Made by a program: the position numbers and the translations under genes. From the NCBI GenBank assembly GCA_947259165.1, contig CAMYKY010000053.1:1-36943 (forward strand): a DNA stretch of 36,943 bases, given 5' to 3'. The notes below the pieces were generated by a model. The model ran no database searches. It saw only the letters and a list, made by a program, of their open reading frames with translations, and had not been told where the DNA came from. How positions within the stretch are numbered: position 1 is the first letter of the stretch; every line of letters begins with the position of its first letter. Shown here piece by piece: positions 10,079 through 36,943 of the stretch. Source of the DNA: an uncultured Acidobacteriota bacterium. Lineage in GTDB: Bacteria; Acidobacteriota; Vicinamibacteria; Marinacidobacterales; SMYC01.

Positions 10079-11422
10079 ATGCGTCCATTTTCGTTGCTTC
10101 TTGGTTCAACGGCTTTTCTGAGCGCCCTCGTGGGGGTGGCTTGTCAGCCGGAGATCGTGCCGGAGCCTTATGTGCCTACGGGTGCGCACGACGCTTACCG
10201 TCACGCGCTCGTGGAGTCGGGGCTCCGCGAGACGGCTTTGGGTCGCGATTGGGAAAAGGTGGGCGACGCGGCGCTTCGCTCGCCCGTCAACATCGACGCG
10301 CCGTTCAGGGAGACGGTGTACGTTGATTCGACCCGGGCGTTTGCGGCGAGCTACCGCTTCGCGGTGGTTCGCGGTCAACGGACCGAAATCCAGCTCTCGC
10401 TCGAGCCCACCTCCGATTGGCGGATCTACCTCGACCTGTTCCGCGAACCCGATGAGCCGGCTGAGCCGCCCGTGCACGTTGCGAGCGGCGGGGAGGGAGA
10501 CCTCCGCCTCGCGTTCGAGCCGCGCGAGGACGGCCGGTATCTGCTACGACTCCACTCAGAGCTGCTACGTGGTGGCAGCTGCACTCTAGAGATTCGAAAC
10601 GTCGCCTCGCTCGACTTTCCGGTCGCCGGGCATGATACCAGCTCGATCGGCTCGACGTTCGGAGCTGAGCGCGAAGCCGGTCGTCGGGAGCACCACGGCG
10701 TCGACATCTTCGCAAGGCGGCACACTGACGTGCTCGCGACGTCGAACGCTCGGGTCCGGCGCGTCGATGAGTGGAAGCTCGGGGGCAACATCATCTGGCT
10801 CGAGGATCCTGAACGCGGACTTCGCATCTATTTCGCTCACCTACAGACGCAAGACGTCGAAGAAGGGGTCTGGGTCAACGCGGGAGACCGAATCGGCACG
10901 GTCGGCAACAGCGGCAACGCGCGCACGACGCCGCCCCATTTGCACTTCGGGGTGTATGTTCGCGGCGAGGGTCCCATCGATCCGTTCCCATTCTTGCAGC
11001 AGCCGACACGAAAACCTCGTGACATCCGCGTGAAGCTCGACCCTCTTGGAGGGTGGCTCCGGACGAAACAAGACAAAGTGGCGCTTCGCCCCCAACCGGG
11101 TGGCGAGCCCACGCTAGGGGAAATTGAGAAACATACCGCGCTGTACGTCGCTGGCGGCTCGAGTCGAAGCTACCGTGTGGTCCTGCCGAACGGACTCATC
11201 GGCTATGTTGCGGAAAGCGAGACCGAACCCTTGAGTAAGTCCGTCGACACGCTCTCCGTCGTGGAAACGGCACCAGTGCTCGATCGACCTGCGTCGGACG
11301 GAGCGGTGATGGAACGGATCGATGCCGGCGCGACGCTCGACGTCCTGGCAAGGTACGCGAGCTACGTCTGGGTTGATTCCGACTTGCCCCGACCCGCGTG
11401 GATCCAGACCTCCAGTCCCTAG
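10079..11422 (+). CDS. M23 (LytM) peptidase-domain lipoprotein with C-terminal SH3-like repeats
   Basis: A 447-residue lipoprotein. The signal ends in a lipobox-like LVGVAC with Cys22 as the lipidation site. A beta-sandwich (about 70-175) precedes the M23 domain. The M23 zinc motifs are H205-x3-D209 (HHGVD) and HLH at 287-289, with H254 in YFAHLQ as the further conserved His, so it looks catalytically intact. Two bacterial SH3-like segments follow (about 325-385 and 390-445; text such as VALRPQPGG and VLDRPASDG). The likely role is cell-wall peptidoglycan hydrolysis or its regulation in the periplasm. Its TAG stop (11420-11422) lies in the first bases of a 99-bp repeat, so the present C-terminus may have been set by insertion of that repeat. 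Confidence 0.88.
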   Translation: MRPFSLLLGSTAFLSALVGVACQPEIVPEPYVPTGAHDAYRHALVESGLRETALGRDWEKVGDAALRSPVNIDAPFRETVYVDSTRAFAASYRFAVVRGQRTEIQLSLEPTSDWRIYLDLFREPDEPAEPPVHVASGGEGDLRLAFEPREDGRYLLRLHSELLRGGSCTLEIRNVASLDFPVAGHDTSSIGSTFGAEREAGRREHHGVDIFARRHTDVLATSNARVRRVDEWKLGGNIIWLEDPERGLRIYFAHLQTQDVEEGVWVNAGDRIGTVGNSGNARTTPPHLHFGVYVRGEGPIDPFPFLQQPTRKPRDIRVKLDPLGGWLRTKQDKVALRPQPGGEPTLGEIEKHTALYVAGGSSRSYRVVLPNGLIGYVAESETEPLSKSVDTLSVVETAPVLDRPASDGAVMERIDAGATLDVLARYASYVWVDSDLPRPAWIQTSSP

Positions 11423-11516
11423 TGCATGGACCCGCTGATCCTGTCGGTAAATTCCGACGTCATTTTTGGTGCTGACAAGGCGCTCCGACGAATTCATATC
11501 TAGATATTCGGAGGAG
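11418..11516 (+). repeat. 99-bp structured repeat, copy 1
   Basis: The 99 bases here match 36845-36943 with a single substitution (T at 11467, G in the other copy). The unit has two inverted repeats: GTCGG (11443-11447) with CCGAC (11454-11458) around a 6-base loop, and CTCCGA (11483-11488) with TCGGAG (11508-11513). The second encloses the perfect palindrome ATATCTAGATAT (11496-11507), so an RNA copy would fold as a long hairpin with a 7-base bulge. A GGAGGAG sequence closes the unit. It lies between the M23 lipoprotein, whose stop it provides, and the PATAN gene that starts at 11586. No coding frame is credible inside it. It may be a small mobile element or a conserved RNA leader. Confidence 0.9.
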
Positions 11517-11585
11517 GCCTGAGTCACAGCTGGCAGCGGAGTCCCCCCTTAAGCTGGTCAGACCAACCGGAGGTCGACCGAAGTT

Positions 11586-13040
11586 ATGACAAGTGTAGCC
11601 ACAGAGCCGGGCTGGATGGGCGCTTTCTCGCCTGTCGCCCTCACCAACGTATTGAAACGGGTCGCGAGCGAATCCTGCTCGGGCGAGCTTCAAGTCGTCA
11701 GCGGTAATTGGATCAAAACCATTCGCGTGGACGACGGCGCCATACGCTTTGCCAAAAGCAACATGCGCCAGGATCGTCTCGGCGAGAGCATGTTGGCGCA
11801 CGAGTGCATCTCGAGAAGCGACTACCGTCTCGCGAGCGAAAAGATGGCGGCGGACGGGTGCCGCTTTGGGGAGGCGCTCGTCGAAATGGGTTGCCTCGAT
11901 CGCAAAAAACTCCACCGGGAGCTCGGCGTCCAGGTCCAGCGAATCGTCCTGTCGCTGTTTCGAGTGCGCGACGGCCTCTACAGTTTCGAAGAAGCCGGCC
12001 CCAACGAGACCCCGCTTCCGTTCTCGCTGCCGGTGCCGCCCCTTCTGCTGAAAGGGCTCCGCAGGATCGACGACGGCCGGCTCATCCTCTCGGCGCTGCC
12101 TCCCGCGGACACGCTCGTCCGAATGGCGGAAAAGCCAACCTACAACCTCGATATCACCAAGCTCGCCGCGCTCGAACGGAGTGTTTTGGAAAAGGCCAGC
12201 GACGGCGCAACCATCGGCGACATTGTCCGTGACGGCTCGCACGAGCGTAGCAGCGCGCTGAGAGCTTGCTATACGCTTCTGAGTCTCGGCCTCCTCGAGG
12301 TCGAGGCGCCTCAACCGAGCGAGGCGAGCGAGGCGATACGCGAGCTGATCGAGTCGCAATTCGAACGACTCGAGTCGACGAGCGAAGAGGACATGCTCGG
12401 CGTCACCCGGGAGACGCCGGAGGAGCCGCTGCGCGAAGCGTATGCGAGTCTGTGCGGTGAGTGGGCCAACGTGCGCGAGGAGACGGACGACGACACCCTG
12501 ATCGAAAAGATCGACGCAATCGAGTTCAGGCTCGCTGCCGCCTACCATCAACTTCTCGTGGAGCGAAATCGCGTGAGCGAAACCGTGGCCGCGGAGCCCC
12601 TCGACGAGCCCACGGAACAAAGCGAAGGTGACGACGCCTCGCGCCACGCTCGGGTCGAACAGCTCGAACGAGACTCCAAGCTCCACCTTCAAGTCAAAGA
12701 CTGGACCGGCGCAATCTCCCTGCTCCACGAGCTCGTCGCCCTCGCCCCGGAAAACGCCGAATATCAGTTGATGATGGGGCAAGCGATGCAATTCCATCCG
12801 ACGCTCAAATCGGCTGCTGAAGAGCACTTCGTCCAAGCGGTAACTCTAGCGCCCAACGACGCCCCCGCTCACGTGGGCCTGGGTCGCTACTACCAACGGG
12901 CCAAGAAACACGCACGCGCGAGCGCCGCGCTCGAGCGCGCCCTCGAGCTCGACCCGAGAAACGAAGACGCGAAGCGGTATCTCGAGGCAGGTCGCCAGCC
13001 GACACGGATGAGCCGACTGTTCAAGAAGATCTTCCGCTAG
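11586..13040 (+). CDS. PATAN (DUF4388) protein with degenerate J-like domain and TPRs
   Basis: This 484-residue cytosolic protein has three parts. Residues 12-160 form a PATAN/DUF4388 domain (FSPVALTNVLKRVASESCSGELQVV, GAIRFAKSN, GEALVEMGCL, YSFEEAGP), common in Myxococcota and cyanobacterial two-component and gliding pathways. Residues 262-325 resemble a J-domain (LGVTRETPEEPLREAYASLCGEW ... RLAAAYHQL) but lack the HPD tripeptide, so it should not stimulate DnaK. Residues 362-465 are TPR repeats. The C-terminus is basic (MSRLFKKIFR). The role is probably as an adaptor in a signalling or motility-type complex; the partner is unknown. A GGAGG lies 13 bases before the ATG, a long spacing. It follows the 99-bp repeat by 69 bp and faces the DCC gene with an 8-bp gap. 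Confidence 0.8.
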   Translation: MTSVATEPGWMGAFSPVALTNVLKRVASESCSGELQVVSGNWIKTIRVDDGAIRFAKSNMRQDRLGESMLAHECISRSDYRLASEKMAADGCRFGEALVEMGCLDRKKLHRELGVQVQRIVLSLFRVRDGLYSFEEAGPNETPLPFSLPVPPLLLKGLRRIDDGRLILSALPPADTLVRMAEKPTYNLDITKLAALERSVLEKASDGATIGDIVRDGSHERSSALRACYTLLSLGLLEVEAPQPSEASEAIRELIESQFERLESTSEEDMLGVTRETPEEPLREAYASLCGEWANVREETDDDTLIEKIDAIEFRLAAAYHQLLVERNRVSETVAAEPLDEPTEQSEGDDASRHARVEQLERDSKLHLQVKDWTGAISLLHELVALAPENAEYQLMMGQAMQFHPTLKSAAEEHFVQAVTLAPNDAPAHVGLGRYYQRAKKHARASAALERALELDPRNEDAKRYLEAGRQPTRMSRLFKKIFR

Positions 13041-24266: not shown

Positions 24267-27200
24267 TTATTTCAGCGTAATCTCGGCCACATCCGTGAAC
24301 GTCTGACCCGTCTTCTGGATGGTGATGTCGACGATGTAGGTTTTCTTTGGCAGCTTCGCGCCGGTCTCGTCCACCGTTTGCCAGTTGAAGTGCCAGGTCC
24401 AGCTCGGGCTCGAGGGCAGCCGGAAAGAGCTATTGCCTGGGTCTTCCGCGGTAAACGTGAATACCATCAACGGATCCTCAGCGCGCCGGATGGTGATCAT
24501 CGGGTCCGTATCGGAGCTATCGACAACAAGCCCGTCCATCGTGAACTTCCACTGAAGAGGGACCGAGCTGCCAGCTCTGAATTTCTTACCGCCCGGCGGC
24601 GGAAGGTTCTTGACGGGCTCGAGCCCGTACGCCATCGACACAACAGTGACGGTGACGAAATTGGACGGGCCGCTCGTGGCGCCGTCGGCGAACTCCGCCA
24701 CGACCCAGTACGTGTAGTCCCCAGAGGCGAGGTCCGTGTTATCAGTGAACTCATAATCGACGAGACCCGGCCCGGCGGAGACAGTGCCGACTGCCACCGG
24801 GCTGCTCGCGGGTGTAATCGTAGCTCCTTCCACGCGGAAGACGAGGTATTGAGTGACACTCCCCACGTTGGGCGCCTTCCATGCGAGCTCCGTCGTATCG
24901 TCGACTCTCGCCGCCGTCAATAGATACGGAGGACTGTTCCCCAACGCTGTGGCCGTCCCGCGGTCTATCTCGAAAACACCGTCGTCCGCGGCGACTCCCA
25001 GGTCGCCCCGTCCGAGGTCACCACGTCCGAGGTCGCCTCTGCCCAAGTCGCCGCGACCCAAGTCGCCACGTCCGAGATCCCCGCGGCCCAAGTCGCTCTG
25101 ACCCAAGTCGCCTCTGCCCAAGTCGCCGCGACCCAAGTCGCCACGTCCGAGGTCGCCTCTACCGAGATCGCCGCGACCGAGATCGCCACGACCCAAGTCA
25201 CCGCGGCCCAGATCGCCACGACCGGAGTCGAGGGACATAGGCCCCATGAATGCCACGAACTCTCCCGTCTCGGGATTTTGTACGAAGAACCATCCACCGA
25301 CATTGCGCCTGCTGGCGCCCTGGTTCAGGCGGAGGTTGTCCCAGTCGTTCGACCCGTTGAGTGGTTCGGCGGGTTGTTCAACCGTTGGTGAGCCATCCAA
25401 GTTGAGGTCCTGCGCTAAAGACGAATCCGACGAATCGCCGTCCGCATTCCAGTCGATCGGGTCGATGGTGCGGCCAGTGCCGTCGATGCGGACCATGTCC
25501 ACGTCCGTGTCCAGGAGCGGCGAGCCATCGCAATGGCTCATTGCCACCGGGATTCCTAGAATGTCACCCAGGCTCCCCGGGGCAACAGGCGCATACCATG
25601 CAGTCCGGTAAGGCGCGTCGACGCCCAAACCGGCGCTTTCGTCGAGATCGTTCTCATCGAGCATCGGGAACATATCGCTGGAGAAGTCGACCCGAGGCAT
25701 ACCCGTGACGTCGAACAACCCGCGCAACTGGAACAGGTAGTTCATGACGCTCAAGTAGTTCGGTTTGCAGTTGGGCTCGAATGGATCTCCGCCGTGCCTC
25801 CGCCCCAAGTTGTGTCCCAGCTCGTGCATCAGCGTCGAGGCTTGCCAGAAGTCGGTTCCGACCGGGTTGCCGTTGAAATCGTCGAAGGCGCCGAGCGTCA
25901 CCATGAGATCGCCGCCGAGGTAGTCGCCGACACCCGTGAACGTGGCGGGCACGTGGTAGTCGGGATTCGTCGCCATACAAGCCTCGTCCGGATAACCGAA
26001 GTCCAGGCTCGCCTCGTCTTCCACTAGACATGCCGCTTTGGGCACACCGAGTGCGTGGGCGAACAACGCGTAGCGGAAAATGTCCTTGCGGTTGCGATCG
26101 AAAACCCGTTCGCACGTGGTGGAAGGATTGCCGTCGCTCTCGGCGAGCTCGCATTCGTCGTCGGTGAGGGTGAGCGGTCTGTCCCGGAAGAATCGAAAGC
26201 CGCTCTTCCAGCCCACGGTGCCCGGATGTTCGGAGAACTGGCAAACCCAGGGAGCGTCAGGGTCGAGCTCACACGATTCGACCGTGTCCTGTTCGTCCAT
26301 GGAATCGCCGCCCCGGGCGTACGCTGCCGGAACGACATAGGGACCGGCGACGGCCTCCCAACTTGGATAGGTGGATCCATACGTACTGCCGACATCGAAA
26401 TGCGCGCGGATCCCTTTGTCGGCAAACGACTCGCCCACCAATCTCAGCGCCTCGGGCGTGGGTAGATGCGTGTGGGGACCTTTCACCGACGCGTCGGTAC
26501 CACTACCGTAGGTAGCGTTCTCGTCGGTAAACAGGTAGCTGATTTCGATGAAGAGATCCTGCTGATACGGGTCCGCACCCATGGCGGCAAGGTTCGGAAG
26601 GACCACGCCGTTCGGATCCTGCAGATCGTTTTCCGACGATTCCCAGATATCGAGGAGCCCATCGTGATCGCTGTCCTGGACCTCGGTTTGATAGATGACC
26701 GCGCCCCAGGTTAGACAATCGAACGAGCTGAAGCCCTCGTGATCGACCGAAGTCGTCACGTAGGGCAGAGTCGGAATGGCGAGCTCGTCGATGGTGACGT
26801 TATCCCACTGCGGACCCTCGGACGCATCGAACTCGTTGAATAGCGGCGGCGTTCCGGGCACGAGCAGGCGTTCCGATTTGTTGAACTGTCCGCTGCCCAC
26901 GATGTGGGTGATTTTGGGGAGCGTTAGCGGCGTGGGTGAAGGATCGTAAAACCCTTCGATCGTCTGGGTCATCATGTCCGTGTCGTTGTTCATCGTGTGG
27001 CCGCCGTCGTACATGACGATCGCGCTCAGGGACGCCGTAGGGTCGGGGTCCCGGTAGATCACCACAAGGCTCGCGCCGAGCGCATTCGGAACTCCGTTCC
27101 CGCTGCCCGAGTCGGGCAGCTCGATGGTGAGCGGCGGCTTGCCGTGTGCGGCCAAGTCGTCGTCATTGAGCAGGTGCTTTCCGAAATTCTGAACGTTCTC

Positions 27201-27677
27201 TTGGTCGCCGACCGGCAAGAACCGCAGAACGTCGGCGCGATACGTGTACGTCTTATGCGATCCGCCCGACGTGCCCGTTCCGCCACCCGAGCTCCAGCAC
27301 GGAGCGGTTCCGGCCTGATCCAGCACTTTCGCGAGCGGGCCGTAAGACGTGCTGAGCGGGTAGCCGTTGAACGACGCACCGGCGATACCCGAATCCGGGC
27401 CGAGGCTTTCTTTGGACACGATTTGCCAATACAAGAACGCGCCCAAGATCTCCGCCTCGGCCGGCACCTCGTTCGCATTGCCCACATTGAAGTTGAGAGT
27501 GCCGGTTGCAATACCATCGACACCCGTGCCGCTCACACCGACACCGGCGACCTCGTAGCTACCGGTGACGAAGTAGTTCTTGAAGAAGCTCAGGTCCTGA
27601 GCGTGCGTTAGCTGCGCGGAAAAAAGAACAAGGCTGAGACTGACGGCCGCTAGGGCGCTGTACGATCGTGTGGGCAC
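24267..27677 (-). CDS. Secreted metzincin-like zinc protease with RGDLG pentapeptide array
   Basis: A 1136-residue exported protein. The signal peptide runs to about residue 26 (ends QLTHAQD). A beta-rich N-terminal domain (about 30-370) is followed by a calcium-binding type DSDHDGLLDIWE. The zinc site HELGHNLGRRH is at 618-628 (HExxHxxGxxH), with a Met-turn-like SVMNY downstream; these are the metzincin hallmarks. Residues 820-894 are fifteen tandem pentapeptides, RGDLG in all but one (QSDLG, ninth). FnIII-like (about 915-1010) and a C-terminal beta module follow. The start is GTG with a strong AGGGGGAGGG upstream. The protein is probably an extracellular protease; the RGD copies might mediate attachment, but that is inference. 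Confidence 0.88.
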   Translation of the reverse strand: MPTRSYSALAAVSLSLVLFSAQLTHAQDLSFFKNYFVTGSYEVAGVGVSGTGVDGIATGTLNFNVGNANEVPAEAEILGAFLYWQIVSKESLGPDSGIAGASFNGYPLSTSYGPLAKVLDQAGTAPCWSSGGGTGTSGGSHKTYTYRADVLRFLPVGDQENVQNFGKHLLNDDDLAAHGKPPLTIELPDSGSGNGVPNALGASLVVIYRDPDPTASLSAIVMYDGGHTMNNDTDMMTQTIEGFYDPSPTPLTLPKITHIVGSGQFNKSERLLVPGTPPLFNEFDASEGPQWDNVTIDELAIPTLPYVTTSVDHEGFSSFDCLTWGAVIYQTEVQDSDHDGLLDIWESSENDLQDPNGVVLPNLAAMGADPYQQDLFIEISYLFTDENATYGSGTDASVKGPHTHLPTPEALRLVGESFADKGIRAHFDVGSTYGSTYPSWEAVAGPYVVPAAYARGGDSMDEQDTVESCELDPDAPWVCQFSEHPGTVGWKSGFRFFRDRPLTLTDDECELAESDGNPSTTCERVFDRNRKDIFRYALFAHALGVPKAACLVEDEASLDFGYPDEACMATNPDYHVPATFTGVGDYLGGDLMVTLGAFDDFNGNPVGTDFWQASTLMHELGHNLGRRHGGDPFEPNCKPNYLSVMNYLFQLRGLFDVTGMPRVDFSSDMFPMLDENDLDESAGLGVDAPYRTAWYAPVAPGSLGDILGIPVAMSHCDGSPLLDTDVDMVRIDGTGRTIDPIDWNADGDSSDSSLAQDLNLDGSPTVEQPAEPLNGSNDWDNLRLNQGASRRNVGGWFFVQNPETGEFVAFMGPMSLDSGRGDLGRGDLGRGDLGRGDLGRGDLGRGDLGRGDLGRGDLGQSDLGRGDLGRGDLGRGDLGRGDLGRGDLGRGDLGVAADDGVFEIDRGTATALGNSPPYLLTAARVDDTTELAWKAPNVGSVTQYLVFRVEGATITPASSPVAVGTVSAGPGLVDYEFTDNTDLASGDYTYWVVAEFADGATSGPSNFVTVTVVSMAYGLEPVKNLPPPGGKKFRAGSSVPLQWKFTMDGLVVDSSDTDPMITIRRAEDPLMVFTFTAEDPGNSSFRLPSSPSWTWHFNWQTVDETGAKLPKKTYIVDITIQKTGQTFTDVAEITLK
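24996..25220 (-). repeat. 15-unit, 15-bp tandem repeat coding for (RGDLG)n
   Basis: Fifteen copies of a 15-bp unit lie in frame within the protease gene; 14 code RGDLG and one (the ninth from the N-terminus) QSDLG. Wobble positions vary. A higher-order period of 75 bp is also visible: a block of over 40 bases starting near 25033 recurs near 25108, so the array grew by duplication of five-unit blocks. The D-L-x-x-G spacing fits the A(D/N)Lxx pentapeptide-repeat pattern, so a beta-helix of nearly four coils is possible. Confidence 0.92.
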
Positions 27678-34360: not shown

Positions 34361-35719
34361 TTGCGCCGAGTGCGCCTGCCATTCTTCGCCAGCCTGCTCG
34401 TGCTCATGTTGACCGTCCTGGACTCGTCTCGCGCTGACGCCGCCGACACACCCATCCTCTTTGTTCACGGCAACGGCGACACGGCCGCCTTGTGGCACAC
34501 GACTCTTTGGCGCTTCGAGTCGAACGGTTACGACGCGAGCCGGCTGTTTGCGATCGATATGCCGCATCCGTCCGCGCGAGCAAACGATTTGCAGGAAGAA
34601 GCCAATCGGAGTTCGACTCGGGATCAGCGAGAATCGCTCAGCGCGGAGGTCGACCGTATTCTCGCAGCGACTGGCTCGGAGAAGCTCGTGCTCGTGGGTA
34701 GCTCGCGCGGCGGCAACGCGATTCGCGACTACGTGAGCCACGGTGGCGGCCATCAAAAAGTCGCCATCGCGATCCTGTGTGGTACTCCCAATCACGGCGT
34801 CGTAGCTCGGCCGAGCGGCCTCGAAAACGAGTTCAACGGAATGGGCCCGTTTCTCGACAATCTCAACAAACTCCATGAAGACTCCGAAGTCCACCCGGAC
34901 GTGAAATTCGTGACCCTGCGCAGCGACACCAACGACAAGTATGCACAGCCGACCGGCGAAGTCCTCGGGTTTCCCGGCGAACCCACCGGCGTGAACTACG
35001 ACGGTCCCGAGCTGCGTGGTGCGACGAACTTGGTCTTGCCGGGACTCGATCACAGAGAGGTCGCGTTTCACGAACACGCATTTCGAGAGTTGTACCGCAC
35101 CATCGCCGGTGTCGCGCCTGAGCGGCTCGAGATACAACCGCAAGCAAAGCCGGTCCTCGACGGGATGGTCAGCGGCTACGACAACGCCGCCGCCACGAAT
35201 CTGCCGGTCGCCGACGCCCGGGTCGAGATTTTCGAAGTCGACGCAAAAAGCGGGCTACGCCAAGGGGATGCACACCACGAGGCTGTCACGGGCGCGGACG
35301 GCCGCTGGGGGCCTTTCGAGGCATCCGAAACGGCCTCGTACGAGTTCGTCTTATCGGCTGACGGGTACCCAACACTTCATTATTACCGTTCCCCGTTTCC
35401 CCGTTCGAGTCGCTACGTCCATCTGAGGCTCGCACCGCGCGCCGCGCTGCTAGGAGACGGTGCCCAGCCCTGTACGGGCAGCGCCGTTCAAATGACACGG
35501 CCGCGCGGCTATTTCGGTCACGGGCGCAACCGATTCACGCTTGGCGGCGACGTGCCGGACGGGATCGACCAGGGCGTGCCGGCCACTTCCGCGGCGCTCG
35601 GCTGCTTCAGCAGCGACGAGCCGCTGTCCGTTCCCGCCGTCTTCGATGAAGAGACGATCGTCGTTCGCACCCATCCTCTAGAAAAGGGACACATCACGAT
35701 CGCCGAGTTTCACTACTGA
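34361..35719 (+). CDS. Secreted lipase-like alpha/beta hydrolase with regulatory-type C-terminal domain
   Basis: A 452-residue exported hydrolase. After a signal peptide (basic RRVR, then LPFFASLLVLMLTVL, cut near ADA|AD), an alpha/beta hydrolase domain follows with FVHGNGDTAALW and the GSSRGG nucleophile elbow (Ser115). Candidate His residues are in LDHREVAFHEHAF. Residues about 285-375 form a carboxypeptidase-regulatory-like beta domain (KPVLDGMVSGYDNAAA ... TGADGRWGPF). Substrate likely a lipid or polyester; not certain. The start is uncertain: TTG at 34361 gives a good signal peptide; TTG 34358 and GTG 34370 are alternatives, and no Shine-Dalgarno is clear. The stop region overlaps the convergent mnmA by 26 bp. 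Confidence 0.8.
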   Translation: MRRVRLPFFASLLVLMLTVLDSSRADAADTPILFVHGNGDTAALWHTTLWRFESNGYDASRLFAIDMPHPSARANDLQEEANRSSTRDQRESLSAEVDRILAATGSEKLVLVGSSRGGNAIRDYVSHGGGHQKVAIAILCGTPNHGVVARPSGLENEFNGMGPFLDNLNKLHEDSEVHPDVKFVTLRSDTNDKYAQPTGEVLGFPGEPTGVNYDGPELRGATNLVLPGLDHREVAFHEHAFRELYRTIAGVAPERLEIQPQAKPVLDGMVSGYDNAAATNLPVADARVEIFEVDAKSGLRQGDAHHEAVTGADGRWGPFEASETASYEFVLSADGYPTLHYYRSPFPRSSRYVHLRLAPRAALLGDGAQPCTGSAVQMTRPRGYFGHGRNRFTLGGDVPDGIDQGVPATSAALGCFSSDEPLSVPAVFDEETIVVRTHPLEKGHITIAEFHY

Positions 35720-36758
35720 TCGTCGCACCGCCCAGACAAACGTCCCCGTCGTAGAAGACGGTGAATTGACCCGGCGCCACACCGGGCTCTTTGCGACCGA
35801 GTTGTACGGCCGCGCGCCCATCGGACACGTCGACGGTGGCATCGAAGACGGCGGGGCCGTGCCGGAGCTTGACTTGAAGATCGCGCCGTCGCGGAGGCTC
35901 ATCAATCCAGTGAAGTTGCTGCACCAAGTACGCGTCGCGCGACGCTTTGCCGAGGACATCCGCGTGCGCCACGTAGACGATGTTGCGGTCGATGTCCTTG
36001 CTGTGGACGAACCACGGTCCGTGCGAAAGACCCAGGCCTTGCCGCTGCCCGATGGTGTGAAACCAATAACCTCGGTGCCGGCCCAAAACGACGTTCGTTC
36101 CCTTCTCGACGATTTCGCCTTCGCGCACGCCGAGGTGGTGTCGAACGAACTCGCTGTATTTGATCTTCCCTAGAAAACAGATTCCCTGACTGTCTTTTCT
36201 CGCTTGACTCGGAAGATCCAGTTTCACCGCGCGGGCACGGACTTCGTCTTTGGTCAGATGGCCGATGGGAAAAAGCGCTCTTTGAAGCTGAGCCTGGGAC
36301 AAGTGCGAGAGGAAGTACGTTTGATCTTTGACCGGATCGAGACCCTTTCGCATCTGCACGCCGCCGCTGCCCCGCTCGAGTCGCGCGTAGTGCCCCGACG
36401 CGACGCGCTCGAAGCTGTCGTCAATCTCATCGTAAAACGCACCGAACTTGATGCGCTGGTTGCAGAAGATATCCGGGCTCGGCGTCCTCCCGGCTCGTAG
36501 CTCGTCGAGGGTGTAGCTGACCACCCGATCCCAGTAAGCCTTTTGAAGGGAGCGGATCTCGAGCGGTACATCAAAGCGATCGCACACCGCGCGGGCGAAT
36601 TCGAGGTCTTCCTCCCAGGGGCACTCTCCGAGGTAGGCCAGCTCGTCCTCGAGCCAGACCTTCAGGTAGAAGGCAGTGACGTCATGCCCGTCGTCCTTCA
36701 ACAGGCTCAACGCAACGGAGCTGTCCACCCCCCCGGACAGCAAAATCGCGACTTTCAT
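35694..36758 (-). CDS. mnmA: tRNA-specific 2-thiouridylase MnmA
   Basis: MnmA inserts sulfur at C2 of wobble U34 in tRNA-Lys, -Glu and -Gln. The 354-residue protein has the PP-loop SGGVDSS (8-14), nucleophile Cys99 in IFCNQRIKFG, and the second catalytic Cys194 in DSQGICFLGK, so it is complete. The C-terminal FYDGDVCLGGATI is the family end. The ATG at 36758 starts the PP-loop domain exactly. No Shine-Dalgarno precedes it, but a TATATT box lies 6 bp upstream, as expected for a leaderless transcript. The last 26 bp overlap the convergent hydrolase gene. Confidence 0.95.
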   Translation of the reverse strand: MKVAILLSGGVDSSVALSLLKDDGHDVTAFYLKVWLEDELAYLGECPWEEDLEFARAVCDRFDVPLEIRSLQKAYWDRVVSYTLDELRAGRTPSPDIFCNQRIKFGAFYDEIDDSFERVASGHYARLERGSGGVQMRKGLDPVKDQTYFLSHLSQAQLQRALFPIGHLTKDEVRARAVKLDLPSQARKDSQGICFLGKIKYSEFVRHHLGVREGEIVEKGTNVVLGRHRGYWFHTIGQRQGLGLSHGPWFVHSKDIDRNIVYVAHADVLGKASRDAYLVQQLHWIDEPPRRRDLQVKLRHGPAVFDATVDVSDGRAAVQLGRKEPGVAPGQFTVFYDGDVCLGGATISSETRRS

Positions 36759-36764
36759 GCGTTT

Positions 36765-36770
36765 AATATA
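36765..36770 (-). promoter_or_regulatory. Possible -10 box of a leaderless mnmA transcript
   Basis: On the minus strand TATATT ends 6 bases before the mnmA ATG, the distance at which transcription normally starts. With no ribosome-binding site present, a leaderless mRNA is plausible. No clear -35 box is seen. Confidence 0.35.
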
Positions 36771-36844
36771 GACGCAGCGGGGTTTCGTTGTCGCGCGGTT
36801 CAGCATTCAACGCCTACCGGCAACTTTTTGCCTTGCCTCAACGT

Positions 36845-36943
36845 CCTAGTGCATGGACCCGCTGATCCTGTCGGTAAATTCCGACGTCATTTTGGGTGCT
36901 GACAAGGCGCTCCGACGAATTCATATCTAGATATTCGGAGGAG
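36845..36943 (+). repeat. 99-bp structured repeat, copy 2 (reaches window edge)
   Basis: This is identical to 11418-11516 except for one base. It is in the same orientation and lies in the intergenic region beyond mnmA, so it would again precede whatever plus-strand gene starts to the right. It runs to the last base of the window, so the true element may be longer than 99 bp. Both inverted repeats and the ATATCTAGATAT palindrome are conserved. Confidence 0.9.

Follow-up and report, generated by a model that had tools for sequence, protein, structure and literature searches.

MITEs are usually regarded as transient remnants, each produced by deletion from a single transposon within a single lineage. 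Among described systems, RUP of Streptococcus pneumoniae is an IS630-Spn1-dependent MITE of 107 bp that is present in ~100 non-coding, intergenic copies (PMC2229807). The Acidobacteriota element described here shares with RUP its non-coding and intergenic character, a copy number of about 100, TA at the termini and IS630-like ends (PMC2229807). However, RUP depends on a single IS element in a single species, whereas the Acidobacteriota element carries several end types on one core, occurs phylum-wide and, unlike RUP, is palindromic over its whole length of 165-168 bp. The Correia (NEMIS) elements of Neisseria likewise form a long stem-loop with TA at the termini and fall into two length classes (~107 and ~155 bp; PMC2229807) that differ by one internal module. 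Their hosts and TIR size are different, and in Acidobacteriota the module takes the element from 165 to ~221 bp, with the core found in many genera. Enterobacterial ERIC, a small repeat of 127 bp, also has TA at its termini and a stem-loop that appears in transcripts (PMC2229807), but by description it has a short 7-bp TIR and other hosts. Correia, RUP and ERIC were all set apart from the element by hosts, lengths and TIR sizes as described in one review (PMC2229807). IS630-family transposons in the same class of Acidobacteriota have matching TIRs and a CTAG target, yet they span 1.1-1.5 kb and encode a transposase, where the miniature element has a palindromic core and no coding sequence. Our survey of open-access papers returned no account of this element family. 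New relative to the searchable literature is one core common to different IS630 ends over a phylum, at a fixed length of 165-168 bp.

The window, meaning the whole stretch of DNA analyzed, is the entire 36,943-bp contig G000:C53 of an Acidobacteriota draft genome (5.02 Mb, 172 contigs, 84% complete), hereafter the source genome. Two same-strand copies of a repeat lie at 11419-11517 and 36846-36943 with 99% identity over 99 bp, in agreement with an initial annotation that had reported two copies in one orientation differing by a single base. The annotation had placed the first copy at 11418-11516; the length of 99 bp stands, but the start shifts by one base, because nearly all other copies begin at CTAG, and the preceding C (11418) agrees between the window copies by chance. 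Copy 2 stops at 36943 because the contig ends there, and several further contigs of the same genome also terminate inside the element, as expected when a repeat breaks assembly. A hairpin pairing CTCCGA with TCGGAG around ATATCTAGATAT is present as first described, and there is indeed no transposase near the repeat. Complete copies elsewhere carry on with AGCAACGCTGTCAGCGCC...GCACTAG, a continuation absent from 11419-11517; this copy is 3'-truncated and has lost its right TIR. We also considered the terminal GGAGGAG as a ribosome-binding site and rejected it, as the ~20 nt that follow it contain no start codon and the next gene begins at 11586.

Table 1. Features of the two window copies and their neighbors.
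Feature	Position	Strand	Remark
3'-truncated element copy (left 99 bp of ~165-bp unit)	11419..11517	+	matches left part of complete copies exactly or at 99%
CTAG target site (TA duplication inferred)	11419..11422	.	TAG inside is the upstream gene's stop codon
Left terminal inverted repeat, TIR type 1, CTAGTGCATGGACCCGCTGATCCTGTCGGTAAATTCC	11419..11455	+	inverted partner at right end of complete copies
Left part of conserved core, TCATTTTTGGTGCTGACAAGGCG...GACGAATTCATATCTAGATATTCGGAGGAGG	11460..11517	+	also in elements bearing other TIRs
Apical hairpin CTCCGA...ATATCTAGATAT...TCGGAG	11483..11513	+	covaries among copies
Second copy, cut by contig end (assembly break in repeat)	36846..36943	+	window is the entire contig G000:C53
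M23 peptidase gene (PF01551), upstream of copy 1	10079..11422	+	stop codon from the element's CTAG
DUF4388 + TPR protein gene, downstream of copy 1	11586..13040	+	
mnmA-like tRNA thiouridylase gene (PF03054), beside copy 2	35694..36806	-	unrelated to copy 1 neighbors

Although the window holds two copies, as annotated, dozens are present genome-wide. Pattern counts across the 5.0-Mb draft gave ~142 element ends of two types (67 of type 1; 75 of type 2, allowing up to one mismatch for the latter), or ~90 elements. Other genomic copies extend past GGAGGAGG into an inverted partner, and the short complete form is a near-perfect palindrome of ~165 bp, CTAGTGCATGGACCCGCTGATCCTGTCGGTAAATTCC ... GGAATTTACCGACAGGATCAGCGGGTTCGTGCACTAG. 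A long form of ~221 bp has one extra internal module at a fixed point. Type 2 elements have quite different ends, CTAGTGGACTGTAACAG...CTGTTACAGTCCACTAG, but share with type 1 the core, both length classes and the module. Complete members start and finish with CTAG and carry TIRs at both ends; as in MITEs generally, the copies are short (<~300 bp), non-coding, numerous and dispersed. The extra module of ~56-60 bp (GCCGCCTTCCGCAGCGAGCTTGTCGAGCGGAGGG..AGGCCGAAGGCC) keeps its insertion point across end types and genera (L069:134-354 and other long forms).

A segmental duplication, or an assembly artefact, involving two copies might be suspected from the position of copy 2 at a contig end and from the contigs that break inside the element. 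However, the dozens of copies have different flanks, many lie within long contigs, and homologous elements occur in other assemblies, all of which exclude a repeat confined to two copies with full flanking homology and leave this explanation barely credible. Truncated copies of the source genome include pairs (L001/L002, L115/L126, L127/L141 and L019/L020) with a common breakpoint and unrelated right flanks; simple random deletion does not explain the shared breakpoints. Separately, 25-bp palindromes, CTAGTGGACTGTAACAGTCCACTAG, at unrelated loci in two genera (L079, G000:C75:28293-28317; L103, G002:C191:27787-27811) consist of two element ends joined directly.

The initial description of a structured repeat applies to complete copies, which fold as a single hairpin with z scores of -13.5 (DNA) and -13.9 (RNA) versus shuffles, but not to the 99-mer alone, whose fold is not significant (z -1.26 and -0.98) since it contains no more than the left half of the palindrome. 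Among 27 complete copies with several end types, 94.9% of cells were paired, as compared to 82.0% for shuffled sequences and 31-45% when partners were slid. Both sides were altered in 29 of 47 pairs; the corresponding count for 37 core sequences across the class was 28 of 31. Covariation had been proposed at the outset as a means of telling an RNA from a mobile element. Covarying stems were found, but they do not discriminate between these readings. Covariation in a palindrome of this kind is no proof of an RNA, because arm-to-arm correction, or both ends fitting one transposase, would also yield it. The strips flanking the apical hairpin (A3 columns 36-52 and 81-95) reach a conservation of 0.87-0.88 versus 0.54-0.75 elsewhere and include positions unpaired in the consensus; arm correction alone does not explain these strips, and model-based choice of hits inflates their conservation.

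Complete copies covary and fold strongly, which is compatible with the other reading offered initially, a structured RNA leader, here understood as a cis-acting or riboswitch-like control of the downstream genes. Nevertheless, the copies do not precede related genes. At the 41 source-genome loci analyzed, spacers holding elements are tandem in 26 cases, convergent in 10 and divergent in 3, with both relative orientations represented and unrelated neighbors. Taken together with TIRs on both ends, the absence of an Rfam covariance-model match for the element and a window copy that holds just half the structure, this distribution makes an RNA leader very unlikely.

The M23-peptidase locus provides a view of the insertion site. 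In G003, a family relative of the source genome, the ortholog terminates at the equivalent residue (WIRSLSP versus WIQTSSP) and is followed by a DUF4388-type gene with no element between; the intergenic sequence there is too diverged to read an exact empty site, and the contig of a second family relative, G002, stops before this point. Given that this gene pair lacks the element in G003, insertion most likely occurred at the natural stop codon of the M23-peptidase gene in the source lineage, loss from the G003 lineage being less likely. A rough ORF caller applied to 41 source-genome loci placed 17 ORF ends, from 16 of the loci, on a terminal CTAG, which fits insertion at CTAG with regeneration of TAG stops. 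TAG can be read from CTAG on either strand, so an element that inserts at a stop codon restores that stop, and such insertions would be tolerated for that reason. Active targeting of stop codons was considered and set aside, as CTAG sites outside coding sequence in the window frequently form stop codons in any case and tolerance suffices. At L133 (G000:C56, element 40271-40435), two convergent ORFs each take their stop codon from a terminal CTAG of the element. The MITE reading of the initial annotation is supported by TIRs, CTAG at both ends, many copies, unrelated neighbors in both orientations and the element-free gene pair in G003.

Relatives of the element are widespread in Acidobacteriota, to which our genome searches with core models were confined. 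Both G002 and G003 contain further end types on the same core. With element ends left out of the models, a core covariance model (R1) matched 75 of 193 genomes of the class at E <= 0.001, many matches falling between 1e-8 and 1e-15 and some near the threshold, while a broader model (R2) matched 48 of 396 phylum genomes at E <= 1e-6, including 29 outside the class. CTAG was found on both sides near the expected place for 24 of 50 checked core-model hits versus none of 50 control windows, and 23 of these 24 span 165-168 bp. The ends of core-model relatives are of several types, and conservation of the core among these hits is partly ascertainment, as they were selected for model likeness. The TIR type 1 pattern occurs only in the source genome, plus once in G002. 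Searches of IMG/VR and of plasmids did not find the core pattern, and a viral contig carrying CTAGTGGACTGTAACAG (L108) had no element around it and was dismissed as a chance match. A structured core conserved across a phylum with exchangeable ends is unusual for a MITE.

A candidate mover was sought among IS630 transposons, the transposase family covered by our search (PF13358). IS630 transposase genes are present in 76 of 193 class genomes, and several of the 30 class loci fetched for end comparison are flanked by CTAG-starting inverted repeats that match miniature-element ends. The closest correspondence is between IS630 L164 (CTAGTGTCCTGTCTCAGTGGTTCGTGACATAAAT) and MITE L211 (CTAGTGTCCTGTCTCAGTGATTCGTGGCATGAGT), which agree at 17 of 17 terminal bases with an alignment score of 21 versus a shuffled maximum of 8. 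IS630 L166 agrees with MITEs L093 and L217 at 15 of 17 terminal bases, and the match of IS630 L158 and L169 (CTAGTGGCCTGTAACAG) to CTAGTGGACTGTAACAG (L068) is limited to the outermost ~17 bases, with a gapped score not above shuffles. TIR types with an IS630 match are CTAGTGG.., CTAGTCCCCTGG.. and CTAGTGTCC... For TIR type 1, the type found in the window, no IS630 partner emerged from these loci, the best score not exceeding shuffles; its putative tie to IS630 runs only through the shared core and CTAG ends. In G002, an IS630 (L067/L134) is preceded by CTAGTGGTCC and followed by a 9-bp inverted match, but this is near chance level and was discarded as evidence. Because no full IS630 transposase gene scored above cut-off in the 84%-complete source assembly, G001 or G003, the mover of the source-genome elements is lost, unassembled or elsewhere.

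By sequence alone, CTAG at both ends looks the same whether TA or all four bases were duplicated. An IS5-group MITE that duplicates all 4 bp of a CTAG target would equally leave CTAG at both ends, and MITEPsy1 of Pseudomonas syringae, reported to duplicate CTAG or YTAA (PMC3189936), supplies a precedent. However, it is IS630 transposase genes, the only kind searched for, that are surrounded by matching ends and CTAG flanks in several lineages, and we regard an IS5-group origin as unlikely. For IS630, the TA of CTAG is the favored target and is duplicated on insertion (Tenzen and Ohtsubo 1991, as cited in PMC2170065). Mobilization as a REP/REPIN-type repeat by a tyrosine (HUH) RAYT transposase would suit a palindromic, high-copy, intergenic element, but a 165-bp unit with long TIRs and symmetric CTAG ends departs from the 20-40 bp hairpin and tetranucleotide tag of REPs. 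With element ends that match IS630 in our IS630-directed search, this origin appears highly improbable.

We conclude that the window repeat is very probably a truncated MITE copy, from a family that IS630 (Tc1/mariner-type) transposases move in trans. The superfamily works like an IS630-dependent MITE and, for several end types, is one; by its core and CTAG ends, the window copy belongs to it as well. The transposase would recognize the TIRs and excise the element, which would then be inserted at the TA of CTAG, with TA duplication giving CTAG on both sides, a scheme drawn from sequence and known IS630 behavior. The anatomy, the copy number, the CTAG ends, one ortholog locus lacking the element, the covariation and the IS630 end matches of other end types are direct observations; mobilization, the partner of TIR type 1 and the role of the core are what we infer here. 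The terminal ~17 bp vary by lineage and match different IS630 transposons, whereas the ~60-bp apical core is constant. The core may therefore have been kept as a stable scaffold for end replacement while new ends were acquired as transposases changed, and its retention most likely served hairpin formation or mobility. More tentatively, the apical core (CAAGGCG..GACGA..hairpin..GAGCAACG) could be a functional module, either protein-binding DNA or an RNA structure, preserved phylum-wide while its ends were exchanged to keep pace with changing IS630 transposases, by replacement of one end and subsequent arm-to-arm correction of the palindrome. A hybrid element (L143, G000:C41:26746-26908) combines a type 1B end and a CTAGTCCCCTGGAACAG end on opposite sides of one core, and may represent an intermediate of end exchange.

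A length-locked palindrome with a conserved core and differing recognition ends in many families resembles a long-lived parasite of changing transposases, and makes it testable how a gene-less sequence persists and whether such cores have a function. In Acidobacteriota drafts, the element is also a frequent cause of contig breaks. Elsewhere in the window, positions 24952-25260 form a tandem array of 15-bp units that encode 5-residue protein repeats within a large ORF on the minus strand (24267-27677).
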